DNA of 26,298 nt, taken from positions 1 through 26,298 of IMG/VR virus record IMGVR_UViG_3300037119_002626; one strand, written 5' to 3'. The translations under genes and the position numbers were made by a program. Source of the DNA: a virus. The notes below the pieces were generated by a model. That model made no database searches, was not told where the DNA came from, and saw only the letters and a program-made list of their open reading frames with translations. Positions 4,017 through 24,097 of the stretch are shown here, one piece after another. Position 1 is the first letter of the stretch; each line of letters starts with the position of its first letter.

Positions 4017-4141
4017 AGAAGATGCGAAAGCCGAAGGAGATGGACCCCCGCTACTTGAAGGAGGCGAAGCCGCGCGTGCCGCGCAACGTCTTCCTTCGCC
4101 CGCTCGACATTCCCCCGATGCGCACGATCAAGCGACCATGA
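4013..4141 (+). CDS. Small basic Pro/Arg-rich protein (42 aa)
   Basis: Bracketed by ATGA overlaps at both ends, this 42-residue product is highly basic with many Lys, Arg and Pro (begins MKKMRKPKEMDPRYL, ends TIKRP). There is no membrane segment or cysteine. It may be disordered and bind nucleic acid. It is too short for a confident call, but it fills the operon exactly without leaving a gap. Confidence 0.5.
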   Translation: MKKMRKPKEMDPRYLKEAKPRVPRNVFLRPLDIPPMRTIKRP

Positions 4142-7079: not shown

Positions 7080-7128
7080 CTGCGTAGCGGTTAGTCGATC
7101 CCTCTGGGATTCGGTTTACTGGACGCAG
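7080..7128 (-). repeat. Remnant leader cassette with closing stem
   Basis: Read on the minus strand this begins CTGCG-TCCAGTAAACCGA and ends GACTAACCGCTACGCAG. TCCAGTAAACCG and GACTAACCG both match the leader before the gene starting at 9247 (TCCAGTGAACCGATAAACGACTAACCG). A 6 bp stem (7080-7085 with 7123-7128) encloses a 5 bp hairpin (ATCCC/GGGAT). No gene follows on the minus strand, so it looks like a leader left over after loss of a gene. Confidence 0.4.
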
Positions 7129-7154
7129 AAAGGGCGCCTTCGCGGGCGCCCTTT
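7129..7154. terminator. Bidirectional hairpin terminator between converging operons
   Basis: A perfect 10 bp stem (AAAGGGCGCC at 7129-7138 with GGCGCCCTTT at 7145-7154) closes a 6-base loop. Each strand ends the stem in TTT, so it can act in both directions. It sits between the end of the plus-strand operon (7037) and the end of the minus-strand operon (7187), exactly where a shared terminator is expected. The U-tract is short. Confidence 0.75.
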
Positions 7155-7173
7155 CGCGTGCGGCTATGTGCTT

Positions 7174-7190
7174 GGCCTGCTCCTGCCTAG
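7174..7190 (-). repeat. Post-stop tag repeat, copy 1
   Basis: The 17-mer GGCCTGCTCCTGCCTAG (plus-strand text) occurs here and again, identically, at 8410-8426. In both places the minus-strand stop codon TAG falls at its end, so on the mRNA the stop is followed by GCAGGAGCAGGCC. A near copy follows the stop of the gene at 7630 and a looser one follows the gene at 8127. It appears to be the first element of the inter-gene cassette. Confidence 0.6.
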
Positions 7191-7378
7191 TCCAGGGCAG
7201 ACGCCTGTTTCTCGTCCTCCTGTTCCAGCTTCGCAACGATCGTCGCAGCCTCGCGCAGCATCGTTACGGCGTCCTCGATTAGAGTCGCCGCCTCCGCGCT
7301 TACGTCCTCCGCGCGCCACAGTTGCGTTTCTGCGTTGAGCGCTGCCAGGGTGATCTCTTCGGGTATTCCTTGACTCAT
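7187..7378 (-). CDS. Small helical acidic protein (63 aa)
   Basis: The product is one long Ala/Glu/Leu-rich helical segment (about residues 8-55) ending in QEDEKQASALD, with no cysteine or membrane span. The ATG at 7378 is chosen because it forms an ATGA overlap with the upstream gene. The upstream in-frame ATG (7417) would overlap that gene by 43 bp. It is the last gene of the minus-strand operon. A coiled-coil dimer is plausible. The function is unknown. Confidence 0.6.
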   Translation of the reverse strand: MSQGIPEEITLAALNAETQLWRAEDVSAEAATLIEDAVTMLREAATIVAKLEQEDEKQASALD

Positions 7379-7551
7379 GCGCCCTGCTCCTGCTCGAATT
7401 CGGGGACGCCTGCCCACTCCAATAGTTCAACGTCGCCGCTGTCGATCACTTCTGCAAGCGATTGAAGTTCGGCTAGCTCACTCCAACTAATCCGCTCGGC
7501 GCGAATCTCACCGCGTAGGTATTCGAGCCTTTCGCTCGTTTCTGCTTCCAT
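7375..7551 (-). CDS. Small acidic phage protein of the ISWSELAELQSLAE type (58 aa)
   Basis: The 58-residue product contains ERLEYLRGEIRAERISWSEL, followed by AELQSLAE and a GDVELLEWAGVPE tail. To my memory this pattern recurs in small proteins of actinobacterial phages, with no known function. The start at 7551 follows a strong AGAAGGAGG site in the shared leader, and the stop overlaps the next ATG. Its last six residues (EQEQGA) are encoded by GAGCAGGAGCAGGGCGC, the same sequence as the post-stop tag elsewhere in the operon, so the C-terminus may have absorbed a former intergenic cassette. Confidence 0.65.
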   Translation of the reverse strand: MEAETSERLEYLRGEIRAERISWSELAELQSLAEVIDSGDVELLEWAGVPEFEQEQGA

Positions 7552-7585
7552 CTTCCGGCCTCCTTCTGGTTGTTTATTTACCGGA

Positions 7586-7618
7586 TGACCGCGCCGAGTA
7601 ATGACACACGGCGCGGCC
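7586..7618 (-). ncRNA. Intergenic minihelix, class B (loop TGTCATTA), copy 1
   Basis: On the minus strand GGCCGCG pairs with CGCGGTC (7 bp, one G-U). It stacks directly on CCGTG/CTCGG (5 bp, one mismatch), capped by the 8-base loop TGTCATTA. The total of 12 bp equals a tRNA acceptor plus T stem. It lies between the stop of the 7630 gene and the TCCGGTAAA leader of the 7551-start gene, the same place as the tRNA-like elements, and is likewise followed by A then TCCGG. Confidence 0.6.
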
Positions 7619-7629
7619 TGCTCTTGCCT

Positions 7630-8040
7630 CTAAGCGGCGACTGCGCTTAGCTCTAGCTCCCATCGGATTGCGTGTCTGCGTGCGTTCTCCCGCGTGGGAC
7701 GATGCGGCGCATAGTTGCGCGTCTTCTCTACGAAATCGCTTGGCGATTCATAGATTCCAATGCGTGCCTCTGGATCGAGCTTGAATAGCGCGACCATCCA
7801 GTCGCCCCATTCGATGTAGGTAGCCGCCCGGTCGCCGCTTGTCTCGCCTCCGTATTGCCCTGTGTTTTGCGCGTAGCACCGCTTGATGCCGTGCGCGTCC
7901 TCGCCGTGCTCCGCTGATATGCGAACGTCGAAACGTCGCGCACGCGATCGGCTGCCGTGCAGGGAAACGTCCAGCCAGCACCCCTTAGGTAGCTCACGGT
8001 GGAGATCTTCCCAACTGAGCTTGTTTGTATGGATTTGCAT
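7630..8040 (-). CDS. Hypothetical phage protein (136 aa)
   Basis: The start at 8040 (MQIHTNKLSW) follows the AGAAAGGA site and shared leader. The open frame extends to 8154, but that part runs through the tRNA-like element and is unlikely to be translated. The protein has a mixed alpha/beta pattern with basic runs (SRSRARRFDVR) and a Trp-rich middle (YIEWGDWMVALFKLDPEARIG), with two cysteines. No family is recognised with confidence. It is the largest gene of the cassette-separated part of the operon apart from the 8602 gene. Confidence 0.65.
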   Translation of the reverse strand: MQIHTNKLSWEDLHRELPKGCWLDVSLHGSRSRARRFDVRISAEHGEDAHGIKRCYAQNTGQYGGETSGDRAATYIEWGDWMVALFKLDPEARIGIYESPSDFVEKTRNYAPHRPTRENARRHAIRWELELSAVAA

Positions 8041-8068
8041 TCCGGTCCTTTCTGGTTGATTTACCGGA

Positions 8069-8115
8069 TAGGCGCCGCAGGAATCGAACCCGCGCGACGG
8101 CACTCCTTCGCGCCC
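8069..8115 (-). ncRNA. tRNA-like minihelix 1 (acceptor + T arm only, 47 nt)
   Basis: Minus-strand order: 5' acceptor GGGCGCG, 15-nt spacer, T stem GCGGG, loop TTCGATT, CCTGC, 3' acceptor GGCGCCT, then A. The T loop fits TTCRANY exactly and is closed by the conserved G-C pair. Six of seven acceptor positions pair (one G-U, one G-G mismatch). There is no room for D or anticodon arms. It sits between the stop at 8127 and the start at 8040, followed by TCCGGTAAA and a Shine-Dalgarno. Confidence 0.7.
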
Positions 8116-8126
8116 TGTTCCTGCCC

Positions 8127-8327
8127 CTATTCCTCGTCGTACCCGTCGAACCACGGGCCGCGCTCGTCGGTGAGCGCTTGCGCCTCGTCGCTCGTCGCCG
8201 TGCTACTGCTTGTCTCAGGGTCGCGGCAATGCTCCTGCGCCTCGTCCAGCGTTAGCCCTTCTTCGATCACTTCGGATGCGTAATCGTCGCTTTGATACAT
8301 GCGGGTTACTCGATACGTTGCGTCCAT
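8127..8327 (-). CDS. Small conserved-type phage protein (YRVTRMYQSDDYASEV family-like, 66 aa)
   Basis: The product starts MDATYRVTRMYQSDDYASEV and ends GPWFDGYDEE, with a central AQEHCRDPETSSSTAT block. I recall very similar small proteins in many actinobacterial phage genomes, always of unknown function. The sequence is acidic with a beta-like start and one cysteine. The start at 8327 follows AAAGGAGG. The upstream extension in the same frame runs through the tRNA-like element at 8362-8409 and is rejected. It is followed by the GGCAGGAACAG tag and minihelix 1. Confidence 0.75.
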   Translation of the reverse strand: MDATYRVTRMYQSDDYASEVIEEGLTLDEAQEHCRDPETSSSTATSDEAQALTDERGPWFDGYDEE

Positions 8328-8361
8328 TGTCTGATCCTCCTTTGGATCGTTGTTTACCGGA

Positions 8362-8409
8362 AGGGGCGCCGCGGGATCGAACCGCGAACCATCACGCCTA
8401 ACGCGCCCC
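8362..8409 (-). ncRNA. tRNA-like minihelix 2 (acceptor + T arm only, 48 nt)
   Basis: This is the clearest copy. GGGGCGC pairs perfectly with GCGCCCC (7 bp) and CGCGG pairs perfectly with CCGCG (5 bp) around loop TTCGATC, which matches TTCRANY. The 5' acceptor and T stem are joined by only 16 nt, so D and anticodon arms are absent. It is followed by T and then TCCGGTAAAC, the shared leader of the 8327-start gene. On the upstream side it is preceded directly by the post-stop tag (8410-8426). Confidence 0.8.
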
Positions 8410-8426
8410 GGCCTGCTCCTGCCTAG
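8410..8426 (-). repeat. Post-stop tag repeat, copy 2
   Basis: This is identical over 17 bp to 7174-7190 and includes the TAG stop of the 8423 gene. On the mRNA the order is stop, GCAGGAGCAGGCC, then the first base pair of minihelix 2 with no gap. Exact conservation across the stop codon of two unrelated genes points to a copied module and not to coding constraint. Confidence 0.6.
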
Positions 8427-8605
8427 TTCCTGATCGAGTCCTTGCAATCGTCTGCCCATGCCTTGAGAATTGCTCGCGCATCCTCTGGCATTTCATGCGG
8501 CCACGCCTTTGCGATTGCTTGCAATTGCGCGTGCTCGCTATCCCGCGCGTGTTGCATGAGATAGGCCCGCGCATCCTTTGTGCTGTTGATTCTGCTTGGG
8601 ATCAT
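8423..8605 (-). CDS. Small helical hypothetical protein (60 aa)
   Basis: The 60-residue product is predicted mostly helical (KDARAYLMQHARDSEHAQLQ, then ARAILKAWADD) with a basic start and no membrane segment. It starts in an ATGA overlap with the 8602 gene, so there is no cassette here. Its stop lies in the 17-bp tag repeat. Function unknown. It may form a complex with the upstream gene product because the two are translationally coupled. Confidence 0.6.
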   Translation of the reverse strand: MIPSRINSTKDARAYLMQHARDSEHAQLQAIAKAWPHEMPEDARAILKAWADDCKDSIRN

Positions 8606-9069
8606 GCTGTCACCTTTCCTTCCCGCTTGGCTTTACGCCGCGCGATCTCTGCAGCGGCTTCCGGCGTCCCCATCGCGCGCAGCTCCTTGCCACTGGCACG
8701 GAAACAGTCAAGCGCGATCGTGAACCCTTGCGAGGGCTCCTGCGTATTCGGCGTGACCTTGACCTTGCGAGAACCCTTCTTAGGGGCTCTCCGTGGCTTA
8801 GGTGAGGCCGTTTTAGCGGCCTTGACCGAATCCCGCGTTACGCACTCGGCAACGTGCGCGGTTTGGATCTCCGCGATCAGGGCTAGCTGTTCTTCCGTAT
8901 GCGTTGGCACCCTTCCTGCGGATCCTTCACGGTGCCATTCCGTAACGCGCCGATCTAGCCCGGCAGCCTTGAATGCCTTGTCGCGGCGATTGTGTGCCGC
9001 CTTGACCGCGCGCCACGTTGGGGACTCGAATTCCATCCCCGTCCCCATCTTGTTTGTGGGCTCAACCAT
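8602..9069 (-). CDS. Basic hypothetical protein with lysine-rich centre (155 aa)
   Basis: The N-terminal half (about residues 15-80) is helical and contains FESPTWRAVKAAHNRRDKAF. The middle (about 85-105) is a very basic low-complexity stretch (KTASPKPRRAPKKGSRKVKV) and the C-terminal half is again helical and ends in RRKAKREGKVTA. It is therefore likely to bind nucleic acid. The start at 9069 has GGAGG upstream and overlaps the previous gene by 8 bp. An ATG at 9087 is a weaker alternative. No specific family is recognised. Confidence 0.6.
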   Translation of the reverse strand: MVEPTNKMGTGMEFESPTWRAVKAAHNRRDKAFKAAGLDRRVTEWHREGSAGRVPTHTEEQLALIAEIQTAHVAECVTRDSVKAAKTASPKPRRAPKKGSRKVKVTPNTQEPSQGFTIALDCFRASGKELRAMGTPEAAAEIARRKAKREGKVTA

Positions 9070-9247
9070 GCTTCGACCCTCCGCCACTGAGCGGGTTTAG
9101 GCTCTTGGCACTGAGAATCGCGCCACGATCCAATTCACGGCCCTGGCGAATGACCTTTGTAATCGCCTTTCCGCGATTCTCGGCCTCCACCACTTTGGAC
9201 CCCACGGCACCGCGCCGGTAGTCCATGAATTCCACTTTGTACTTCAT
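9062..9247 (-). CDS. Small beta-rich hypothetical protein (61 aa)
   Basis: The first 40 residues (KYKVEFMDYRRGAVGSKVV, then ENRGKAITKVIRQG) suggest a small alpha/beta fold, such as a short beta-hairpin and a helix. The tail is Gly/Ser rich. The start follows the leader CGAAAGGATCGGGC. It is the first gene of a three-gene overlapped block (9247 to 8423) that carries no internal cassette. Function unknown. Confidence 0.6.
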   Translation of the reverse strand: MKYKVEFMDYRRGAVGSKVVEAENRGKAITKVIRQGRELDRGAILSAKSLNPLSGGGSKHG

Positions 9248-9295
9248 GCCCGATCCTTTCGGTTAGTCGTTTATCGGTTCACTGGATACGGCAAA

Positions 9296-9326
9296 GCGCA
9301 TACGCAGTAATGACACTGCGCAGCGC
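9296..9326 (-). ncRNA. Intergenic hairpin, class B (loop TGTCATTA), copy 2
   Basis: A perfect 5 bp stem (CGCAG/CTGCG) carries the 8-base loop TGTCATTA, identical to the loop at 7599-7606. Outside it a second 4 bp stem (GCGC/GCGC) is separated by a small internal loop. It lies between the stop of the 9333 gene and the start-associated leader (TCCAGTGAAC) of the 9247-start gene. Its outer helix is less tRNA-like than that of copy 1. Confidence 0.5.
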
Positions 9327-9332
9327 GGGGTA

Positions 9333-9536
9333 CTAACGCTCTAGTGCGCTGATCCTTTCGTCGCAGCGTTCGCAGATTGGCACTTCACCCAAGATCGGGT
9401 GAGGCCGCATCGTCACCGCTTCATTCGGGCAGAGTGCGAACCATTGGCACGCGGGGATTTCCTCCACGGTTAGAGCCCCTTTCGCTCTCTGCTCCGCGCA
9501 CACTGCCCGAAGGATGTCTCTGCTCTTGCTTTCCAT
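9333..9536 (-). CDS. Four-cysteine zinc-ribbon-like protein (67 aa)
   Basis: A helical N-terminus (about residues 1-25) precedes CQWFALC, then a spacer of about 20 residues with His and Pro, then CERC. This is a C-x5-C...C-x2-C arrangement typical of small phage zinc fingers. The start at 9536 is preceded by AAAGGATCGGATCAG. It probably binds zinc and either DNA, tRNA-like RNA or a host protein. It shares an operon with the tRNA-like elements, but no functional link is shown. Confidence 0.65.
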   Translation of the reverse strand: MESKSRDILRAVCAEQRAKGALTVEEIPACQWFALCPNEAVTMRPHPILGEVPICERCDERISALER

Positions 9537-9567
9537 CTGATCCGATCCTTTCGTTGTGGTTACTGGA

Positions 9568-9611
9568 TACGCGCCCCCGGAATCGAACCGGGCGAAAGCT
9601 CCAAGACGCGT
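9568..9611 (-). ncRNA. tRNA-like minihelix 3 (acceptor + T arm only, 44 nt)
   Basis: ACGCGTC pairs with GGCGCGT (7 bp including one G-U). The T stem CCCGG/CCGGG is perfect around TTCGATT. The spacer is 12 nt (TTGGAGCTTTCG). After the 3' acceptor comes A, then TCCAGTAA, so a CCA triplet lies one base further out than in a normal tRNA. It is placed 8 bp after the stop of the 9620 gene and before the gene starting at 9536. Confidence 0.75.
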
Positions 9612-9619
9612 GGCTACTG

Positions 9620-9814
9620 CTAGTCCTGCTCTAGTGCTCTGATTGCCTCTACTAGTGCAACTGCGCGCCCGCTTGAATCCGGCCCGTGAATCGGCCCGAT
9701 GGTCAGGAATAGCGCGCCTGAGACATTGCGGCTAGCCCGCATGGGGATTCCCTGATAGTAGATCGGCTCCTGCCGTCCTGCCGTCACCTTTTCGATCGTT
9801 TCTTGAACTGTCAT
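9620..9814 (-). CDS. Hypothetical protein (64 aa)
   Basis: The product begins MTVQETIEKVTAGRQEPIYY and has a short beta-like middle (ALFLTIGPIHGPD) and a helical C-terminus ending in ALEQD. The start at 9814 is chosen because it follows the CGAAAGGATCGG leader. The upstream in-frame extension to 9871 would read through minihelix 4. It is acidic, with no cysteine or membrane span. No family is recognised. Confidence 0.6.
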   Translation of the reverse strand: MTVQETIEKVTAGRQEPIYYQGIPMRASRNVSGALFLTIGPIHGPDSSGRAVALVEAIRALEQD

Positions 9815-9842
9815 TTCCGATCCTTTCGTTGTGTTTACCGGA

Positions 9843-9886
9843 TGCGCGGCGAAGGAGTCGAACCCTCGCAAGCTGCCTAGCCGCGT
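9843..9886 (-). ncRNA. tRNA-like minihelix 4 (acceptor + T arm only, 44 nt)
   Basis: ACGCGGC pairs with GCCGCGC at six of seven positions (A-C mismatch at the end). T stem GAGGG/CCTTC (one G-U) closes loop TTCGACT, which matches TTCRANY. The 12-nt spacer TAGGCAGCTTGC resembles that of minihelix 3 (TTGGAGCTTTCG). The element is followed by A, then TCCGGTAAAC. It separates the genes starting at 10139 and 9814. Confidence 0.7.
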
Positions 9887-9893
9887 GGAATGC

Positions 9894-10139
9894 TCAGGGC
9901 TCTACGTGCCAGTAGCCGGGCTCCTGCTCTTCGCGCTTACGTTGCGCGGTCAAGAGAATCCGCAGCTCTGCGCGCAGTTCGGCGCGCTCTTCAGCGTGGA
10001 TTTCCTCGCCTCCGTCAAGATGAGCCTGTAGCGCGGATGAGCGCCTATCAATCTCACGCGCGAGCTGTTCATCTGAGAGAACGTGCGTCCGTCCCGCGTA
10101 GAACGGCTCTTGCAGATGTTGTCCGAATGCGTTCTTCAT
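9894..10139 (-). CDS. Helical hypothetical protein, first gene of the minus-strand operon (81 aa)
   Basis: The product is largely helical and highly charged (REIDRRSSALQAHLDGGEEIHAEERAELRAELRILL), ending in EEQEPGYWHVEP. It has no cysteine or membrane span. It is the promoter-proximal gene, with the leader TCCAGTCAATCG then GAAAGGGATC just before ATG at 10139 and a promoter/operator about 35 bp upstream. A coiled-coil or small regulatory protein is possible. No family is recognised. Confidence 0.65.
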   Translation of the reverse strand: MKNAFGQHLQEPFYAGRTHVLSDEQLAREIDRRSSALQAHLDGGEEIHAEERAELRAELRILLTAQRKREEQEPGYWHVEP

Positions 10140-10174
10140 GCTGATCCCTTTCGTTTCGATTGACTGGATGAGCC

Positions 10175-10202
10175 ATCATACACAATGGGCATTGTGCTGC
10201 AA
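10175..10202 (-). promoter_or_regulatory. Promoter of the minus-strand operon with palindromic operator in the spacer
   Basis: On the minus strand, -35 TTGCAG (10197-10202) and -10 TATGAT (10175-10180) are separated by exactly 16 bp. Those 16 bp (10181-10196) form a perfect inverted repeat: CACAATG, two bases, CATTGTG. A dimeric repressor bound there would block polymerase completely. The first gene starts about 35 bp downstream, and the start-associated leader lies between. Confidence 0.65.
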
Positions 10203-24006: not shown

Positions 24007-24042
24007 CGGGAACCTCCATCCGATCGTTTACTGGACAAACAC

Positions 24043-24068
24043 AGTATAGCACACCTGTCAAGTGTGCT
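24043..24068 (-). promoter_or_regulatory. Promoter with palindromic operator for the 24006-start gene
   Basis: On the minus strand an extended -10 TGCTATACT (TATACT at 24043-24048) is followed by the gene leader. It overlaps an inverted repeat AGCACAC, seven bases, GTGTGCT (24048-24068), whose centre contains TTGACA. That TTGACA is only 7 bp from the -10, so it is not a usable -35 for it. GTGTGCTATA matches GTATGCTATA at 17-26 with one change. A dimeric repressor could bind the palindrome. Confidence 0.55.
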
Positions 24069-24077
24069 TCTAAGACT

Positions 24078-24097
24078 TCCCCGGCCTAGAGCCGGAA
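24078..24097. other. Small hairpin CCGGC/GCCGG upstream of the scaffold gene
   Basis: A 5 bp stem (CCGGC CTAGA GCCGG) lies in the otherwise empty 115 bp between the reverse gene's promoter and the scaffold gene. A second weak hairpin (GGGCGC/GCGTCC) follows at about 24109. Neither has a convincing U-tract. They may end or attenuate readthrough from the portal gene. I see nothing else in this stretch. Confidence 0.3.

Follow-up and report, generated by a model that had tools for sequence, protein, structure and literature searches.

Mitochondrial tRNA punctuation places a sense-strand tRNA-like structure, presumed to be excised by tRNA enzymes, between consecutive cistrons. The phage elements described here share this arrangement but lack a D arm, an anticodon arm and a decoding role, and their cleavage is one that we infer. 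With tRNA genes they have in common an acceptor stem and a T arm with a canonical T loop. A tRNA-like element inside a non-tRNA transcript is also found in mascRNA/menRNA (RF01684), which RNase P and RNase Z generate; mascRNA, however, retains small D and anticodon-like arms and occurs in a single copy at the 3′ end of a lncRNA. This was the only Rfam family repeatedly approached by the element-bearing loci searched, in four matches of 21.6-24.8 bits against a gathering score of 42.5. We know of no earlier case of a natural, repeated tRNA minihelix without D and anticodon arms used as an intercistronic signal, and no description of this element family was found in open-access PMC papers, which cover the literature in part.

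The artificial RNase P substrates pAT1 and pATSer consist of an acceptor stem, T stem and T loop, with a stack of about 12 bp that the phage elements also possess; they are engineered, mostly end in a 3′ RCC(A) and have no spacer, whereas the phage elements carry a GG-containing spacer of 10-18 nt and no CCA (PMC11143913, PMC11221534). The SAS/ESAS sequences of cluster K mycobacteriophages (TM4) resemble the elements as repeated inverted repeats with a conserved leader ahead of small genes, but the ESAS consensus contains no T arm (PMC3203893), and a search of TM4 from 30.0 to 52.8 kb with the element model gave no match. R4-type stoperators are repeated intergenic sites of the same Streptomyces phages; they differ in being repressor-binding DNA sites, devoid of RNA pairing or a T loop (PMC10276819).

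The window, that is the whole stretch of DNA analysed, is an IMG/VR virus record of 26,298 bases whose large terminase shares about 29% identity with Arthrobacter phage terminases. Its minus strand carries an operon of small ORFs, designated early-type on the basis of gene content and position. Four elements lie within this operon (Table 1), at exactly the coordinates and on the strand given by a previous sequence-only reading. Re-inspection bore out the description made there: each has a five-pair T arm closed by G-C, a TTCRANY loop (4/4), an acceptor stem with 6 or 7 of 7 positions paired, and a spacer of 12-16 nt in place of the D and anticodon arms. The proposed location between the stop of one gene and the leader of the next also held at all four, a stop codon preceding the element and a Shine-Dalgarno (SD) sequence and ATG following it. 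The exact motif GGTTCGANYCC occurs four times only, once in each element. A chance origin was rejected by dinucleotide-preserving shuffles: when a T arm and an acceptor with at least 6/7 pairs were required 8-18 nt apart, 400 shuffles yielded five elements in total and never more than one per shuffle, against four in the window. ARAGORN called no tRNA in the window, and Rfam gave no match at gathering score.

Table 1. Minihelices, leaders and related features of the window. E values are those obtained with a covariance model built without the window.
Feature	Position	Strand	Description	E value
Operon	7187..10139	-	About 10 small early-type ORFs, punctuated by elements	
Minihelix A, T-arm/acceptor	9843..9886	-	ACGCGGC-12 nt-GAGGGTTCGACTCCTTC-GCCGCGC-ATCC; acceptor 6/7, outermost A.C; spacer TAGGCAGCTTGC; followed by ATCCGGTAAA	0.0026
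Minihelix B, T-arm/acceptor	9568..9611	-	ACGCGTC-12 nt-CCCGGTTCGATTCCGGG-GGCGCGT-ATCC; acceptor 7/7	6.7e-7
Minihelix C, T-arm/acceptor	8362..8409	-	GGGGCGC-16 nt-CGCGGTTCGATCCCGCG-GCGCCCC-TTCC; acceptor 7/7	4.6e-4
Minihelix D, T-arm/acceptor	8069..8115	-	GGGCGCG-15 nt-GCGGGTTCGATTCCTGC-GGCGCCT-ATCC; acceptor 6/7 including G.U	0.0011 (match spans 8069-8104)
Leader after A	9815..9842	-	TCCGGTAAA...AAAGGATCGG, ends at next ATG	
Leader after B	9537..9567	-	TCCAGTAACC...AAAGGATCGG, ends at next ATG	
Leader after C	8328..8361	-	TCCGGTAAAC...AAAGGAGGATC, ends at next ATG	
Leader after D	8041..8068	-	TCCGGTAAATC...AAAGGACCGGA, ends at next ATG	
Sister junction	9287..9324	-	Non-tRNA hairpin, loop GTGTCATTAC, then constant leader	
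Sister junction	7586..7618	-	10-bp hairpin, loop GTGTCATTAC, then constant leader; fold z = -4.75	
Predicted early promoter	10169..10200	-	TTGCAG-16-TATGAT, by eye; start site at leader ATCCAGTCAA	

Minimum free energy (MFE) folds of the isolated elements gave the predicted acceptor and T arm in three of the four cases, two of these with an extra 3-bp hairpin within the spacer; minihelix D folded alone preferred an alternative structure. Folding energies of the window elements were no better than those of shuffled sequences and thus uninformative, so that the case rests on covariation.

Every junction of the window operon has a constant leader, (A)TCCRGTAAA...AAAGGA...ATG. The same leader was found by eye downstream of two predicted -10 boxes, one at 10168 and the other at 24035; the hexamers of the 10169..10200 promoter, which a consensus promoter scan did not report, enclose a palindrome, CACAATG-CC-CATTGTG (by eye). 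At the 9286 and 7585 junctions the leader follows a hairpin without a T arm; hence, the leader does not require the minihelix, which argues against a processing role. An IMG/VR scan for a T arm joined to TCCRGTAA returned five stretches: four came from phages that have genuine tRNA clusters, and the fifth was a probable attP belonging to a terminase relative, indicating that the exact combination of T arm and leader is special to this record.

Loci holding relatives of the window terminase also have these elements, on the strand that does not encode the terminase: L059, L094, L110 (2), L114 (2), L131 (2), L067 (2, L136) and L061 (3, L134), together with variants bearing an additional arm in L076. 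The spacer of minihelix B, TTGGAGCTTTCG, is close to that of these relatives, their TGGAGTTG matching TTGGAGCTT in the window. In several relatives the stop codon TAG forms the first acceptor bases. The elements are mostly absent from 41 loci that hold a relative of the 66-aa gene; a search for relatives of the 155-aa gene found none. Scanning for the spacer and T-arm pattern identified elements in unrelated metagenomic phages that vary widely in GC content (L153, L155 with three, L156 with two, and L152), including seven in an AT-rich 114-kb phage (L161/L184). Their acceptors pair although the query consisted of spacer and T arm alone. The same pattern gave 15 matches in cellular genome contigs, only one of which (Halobiforma, L170) was minihelix-like by the pairing test; cellular genomes thus seldom contain the pattern. 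This match and an element in HRPV-1 (L198; stop codon within the spacer, E 0.005 with the model built from cultured phages) are single cases that could be due to chance.

With one element as the BLAST query, 143 records gave a match, of which 113 belong to Streptomyces phages. Cultured phages contain 4-13 copies per genome, the count for each phage depending on the pairing thresholds used. Unannotated copies occur in Streptomyces phages phiHau3 (4), Caliburn (9), Joe (9), Lika (7) and Verse (8), in Mycobacterium phages Send513 (~13), Papyrus (~13) and Konstantine (~7), and in Gordonia phage ObLaDi (~11). ARAGORN at times miscalls them as odd tRNAs (Verse, L153). No element was found in the first 38 kb of Caliburn, which hold the structural genes, nor in isolates Brad, DS1, Shocker, ctEqG8 and Tunturi_3. 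Generally, the elements lie directly after a stop codon, some 25-60 nt ahead of the next SD or start codon. In eight cultured phages, 62 of 63 elements are outside annotated coding sequences; 56 of the 63 start no more than 40 nt after a stop codon and 59 end no more than 80 nt before a start codon. Among co-directional gaps of at least 65 nt, 52 of 65 carry a sense element and none an antisense one. Such placement, combined with the sense-only orientation, points to a function exerted at the RNA level and linked to the boundaries of cistrons. The view of acceptor/T-arm minihelices as gene-junction elements is strongly supported and applies far more generally than to one window.

Register analysis resolved the structure into a T-side stem of 6 bp and an acceptor of 5 to 7 bp, the last spacer base pairing and covarying so as to extend the T-side stem to 6 bp. 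Cultured phages supplied 37 distinct elements; every one of their 407 base-pair cells is paired, and 102 contain double-sided changes, distributed over 9 of the 11 pairs. Since the elements were selected for a helix, complete pairing is in part built into the sample, but the variety of pair types is not. The covariation score of this set was 0.691, compared with at most 0.146 for slid partners, and was matched in 0 of 500 shuffles; 11 independent metagenomic elements scored 0.721, again with 9 of 11 pairs doubly changed. Compensatory change in the acceptors, initially proposed from the four window copies, is therefore seen in two independent sets. None of the 37 elements departs from G10-G11 in the spacer, from the T-loop core or from a C after the discriminator, and the unpaired, D-loop-like GG is nearly always retained across elements. 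The outer pair falls at layer 11-13 from the T loop in 28 of 32 elements.

With the covariance model built without the window, the top matches in the window were exactly the four elements. The cultured-phage model detected L110 (E 9e-5), L114, L059, L186 and L185 and gave weak detection in the window itself (E 0.01-0.09, 4.5 kb stretch); the window is thus linked to cultured actinophages through its metagenomic relatives. Copies in other phages, designated beforehand as a sign of support, therefore exist, and the models transfer between phage groups.

The elements are best explained as structured parts of phage mRNAs that are polycistronic and mostly early-type. They consist of 11-13 stacked bp under a canonical T loop, with a strand of 10-18 nt replacing the D and anticodon arms. 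As judged by comparative sequence analysis, their most probable role, with a probability of roughly 0.57, is that of intercistronic processing signals for RNase P, RNase Z or both, the host enzymes of tRNA maturation; they would amount to a phage form of tRNA punctuation pared down to the elbow half of the tRNA. Decoding features and most tRNA identity features are gone; those retained (T loop, GG, 11-13-layer stack, A-C) are recognition features of maturation enzymes, which favours processing. RNase P cleaves hairpins and minihelices made of acceptor and T stem-loop in vitro, recognises substrates by their T stem-loop as well as by the 3′ RCC, and processes phage RNAs and some mRNAs (PMC11143913, PMC11221534). 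RNase Z matures tRNA 3′ ends prior to CCA addition (PMC7479834). RNase P is plausible as the processing enzyme. Relatives L019/L022, in which full tRNAs are interspersed among small genes, were also counted for the processing reading, as was the sub-threshold resemblance to mascRNA-menRNA.

Host enzymes would recognise the minihelix in the phage mRNA and cut at one or both edges. RNase P would act at the 5′ base, and RNase Z just past the discriminator, its usual cleavage position. The polycistronic transcript would thereby be split, so that the upstream mRNA acquires a fixed 3′ end and the downstream mRNA begins with a fixed 5′ leader. The leader UCCRGUAAA of the window opens with the base that follows the discriminator position. 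As two promoters also have this leader at their predicted transcript start, a cut at that base would equalise the 5′ leaders of processed and primary mRNAs. Three further observations argue against processing or restrict it. The 3′ RCC(A) of RNase P substrates is absent: in cultured actinophages the helix is followed by a discriminator-like A and a C (A-C-T/G; R and the first C only), and the window has A/T-TCC (ATCC or TTCC). The elements thus encode no CCA, which many bacterial RNase P enzymes prefer. Without CCA or an anticodon, charging or CCA use is doubtful, as had rightly been cautioned. Second, A.C or A.A frequently stands at the outermost pair, so that most actinophage elements have 11 layers instead of 12. 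Third, a possible promoter motif, seen by eye upstream of some Caliburn elements, suggests that some may be features of 5′ leaders and not of operon interiors.

The main rival to processing, which we consider unlikely, is a non-cleaving element whose binding by a host tRNA-binding protein (EF-Tu, TruB/TrmA-type modifiers or the CCA-adding enzyme), or whose blocking of exonucleases, protects or regulates the flanking cistrons. Aminoacyl-tRNA synthetases and EF-Tu do accept acceptor/T-arm minihelices (PMC11221534), and the T loop is conserved above any cleavage-site base; yet the strict stop-to-start placement better fits segmentation, and the A-C past the helix resembles pre-tRNA positions 73-74, a processing feature.

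Control of transcription through the nascent RNA, by terminators without a U run or by put/nut-like antitermination sites, appears improbable. Gene junctions are rich in hairpins, the sister hairpins at 7585 and 7123 of the window being strong and simple, and precedents exist in the phiC31 early terminators without poly-U tails and the HK022 put sites. However, no U run follows the stem, neither termination nor antitermination demands TTCRANY, a D-loop-like GG and a tRNA-like stack length, and the cultured-phage model had no match in phiC31. Chances are slimmer still that the elements are decoys titrating tRNA-maturation enzymes or tRNA-targeting defence nucleases: the elbow half of tRNA is indeed mimicked 4-13 times per genome, but a decoy does not need sense placement at most sizeable gene junctions, and the anticodon loop, the target of most defence nucleases, is missing. 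Finally, although the T arms of three relatives (L002, L081 and L090) resemble tRNA-Thr 3′ halves and that of L002 lies close to an integrase as a probable attP, functionless decayed tRNA genes or attP-like fragments are a most improbable source, since decay does not produce compensatory double changes and 100% pairing, and att sites are single and lack a matching 5′ acceptor strand, whereas the window has four copies with 5′ strands.

In its widest form, processing by host tRNA-maturation enzymes would define an undescribed, widespread viral RNA class, composed of an acceptor stem, a T arm and a D-loop-like GG, that causes viral mRNAs to be cut into cistrons at most sizeable early-operon junctions of actinobacteriophages and in unrelated phages, perhaps also in archaeal viruses (HRPV-1); on these comparisons, we see the odds for so broad a class as evenly balanced. 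If correct, this would be, to our knowledge, the first natural, repeated intercistronic use of a tRNA minihelix without D and anticodon arms. Because phages of the standard laboratory hosts S. coelicolor, S. venezuelae and M. smegmatis carry the elements, the mechanism is directly testable. The elements offer a simple rule for annotating many phage genomes, 143 records having matched one query. They would also reveal which parts of a tRNA selection retains when nothing but the elbow and the acceptor end has to be recognised, and would bear on minihelix-first ideas of tRNA origin.

Two junctions of the minihelix-bearing operon carry, in place of the T-arm minihelix, hairpins that share the loop GTGTCATTAC. 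A terminator-like hairpin on the minus strand of the window is followed by the leader TCCAGTAAACC, with no clear gene downstream. The palindromes overlying the two predicted promoters could be repressor operators.

Hairpins, predicted promoters and a minihelix-like element
Feature	Position	Strand	Context
Predicted promoter, palindrome CACAATG..CATTGTG	window 10169-10200	-	
Predicted promoter, palindrome AGCACAC..GTGTGCT	window 24035-24080	-	
Terminator-like hairpin AAAGGGCGCC-CGCGAA-GGCGCCCTTT	window 7123-7160	-	
Non-tRNA hairpin	window 9287-9324	-	operon junction
Non-tRNA hairpin	window 7586-7618	-	operon junction
Minihelix-like element	L198 580-625 (HRPV-1, NC_012558 about 4079-4124)		ORF5/ORF6 junction

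The spacer of the element in HRPV-1, a haloarchaeal pleolipovirus, contains a stop codon. At the gp13/gp14 junction of phage phiC31 lies a single tRNA-like T arm (GCCGGTTCGAATCCGGC, L209 31486) that lacks a matching acceptor strand. ARAGORN sometimes reports minihelices as odd tRNAs; its tRNA-Arg and tRNA-Ile calls at L202 7154-7236 (Streptomyces phage Verse) and L153 5291-5381 are miscalled minihelices. The 3′ halves resembling tRNA-Thr in the terminase relatives L002 (where an integrase lies nearby), L081 and L090 are probably attP sites.

In the metagenomic phage records L019 and L022, six full tRNAs are scattered between small genes, an arrangement similar to tRNA punctuation but using complete tRNAs. 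Loci L135 and L192 (G023:C1 about 1000-2300) have an additional 7-bp arm, CCTCCCG..CGGGAGG, placed between acceptor and T arm; these extra-arm elements may represent intermediates between tRNA and minihelix.
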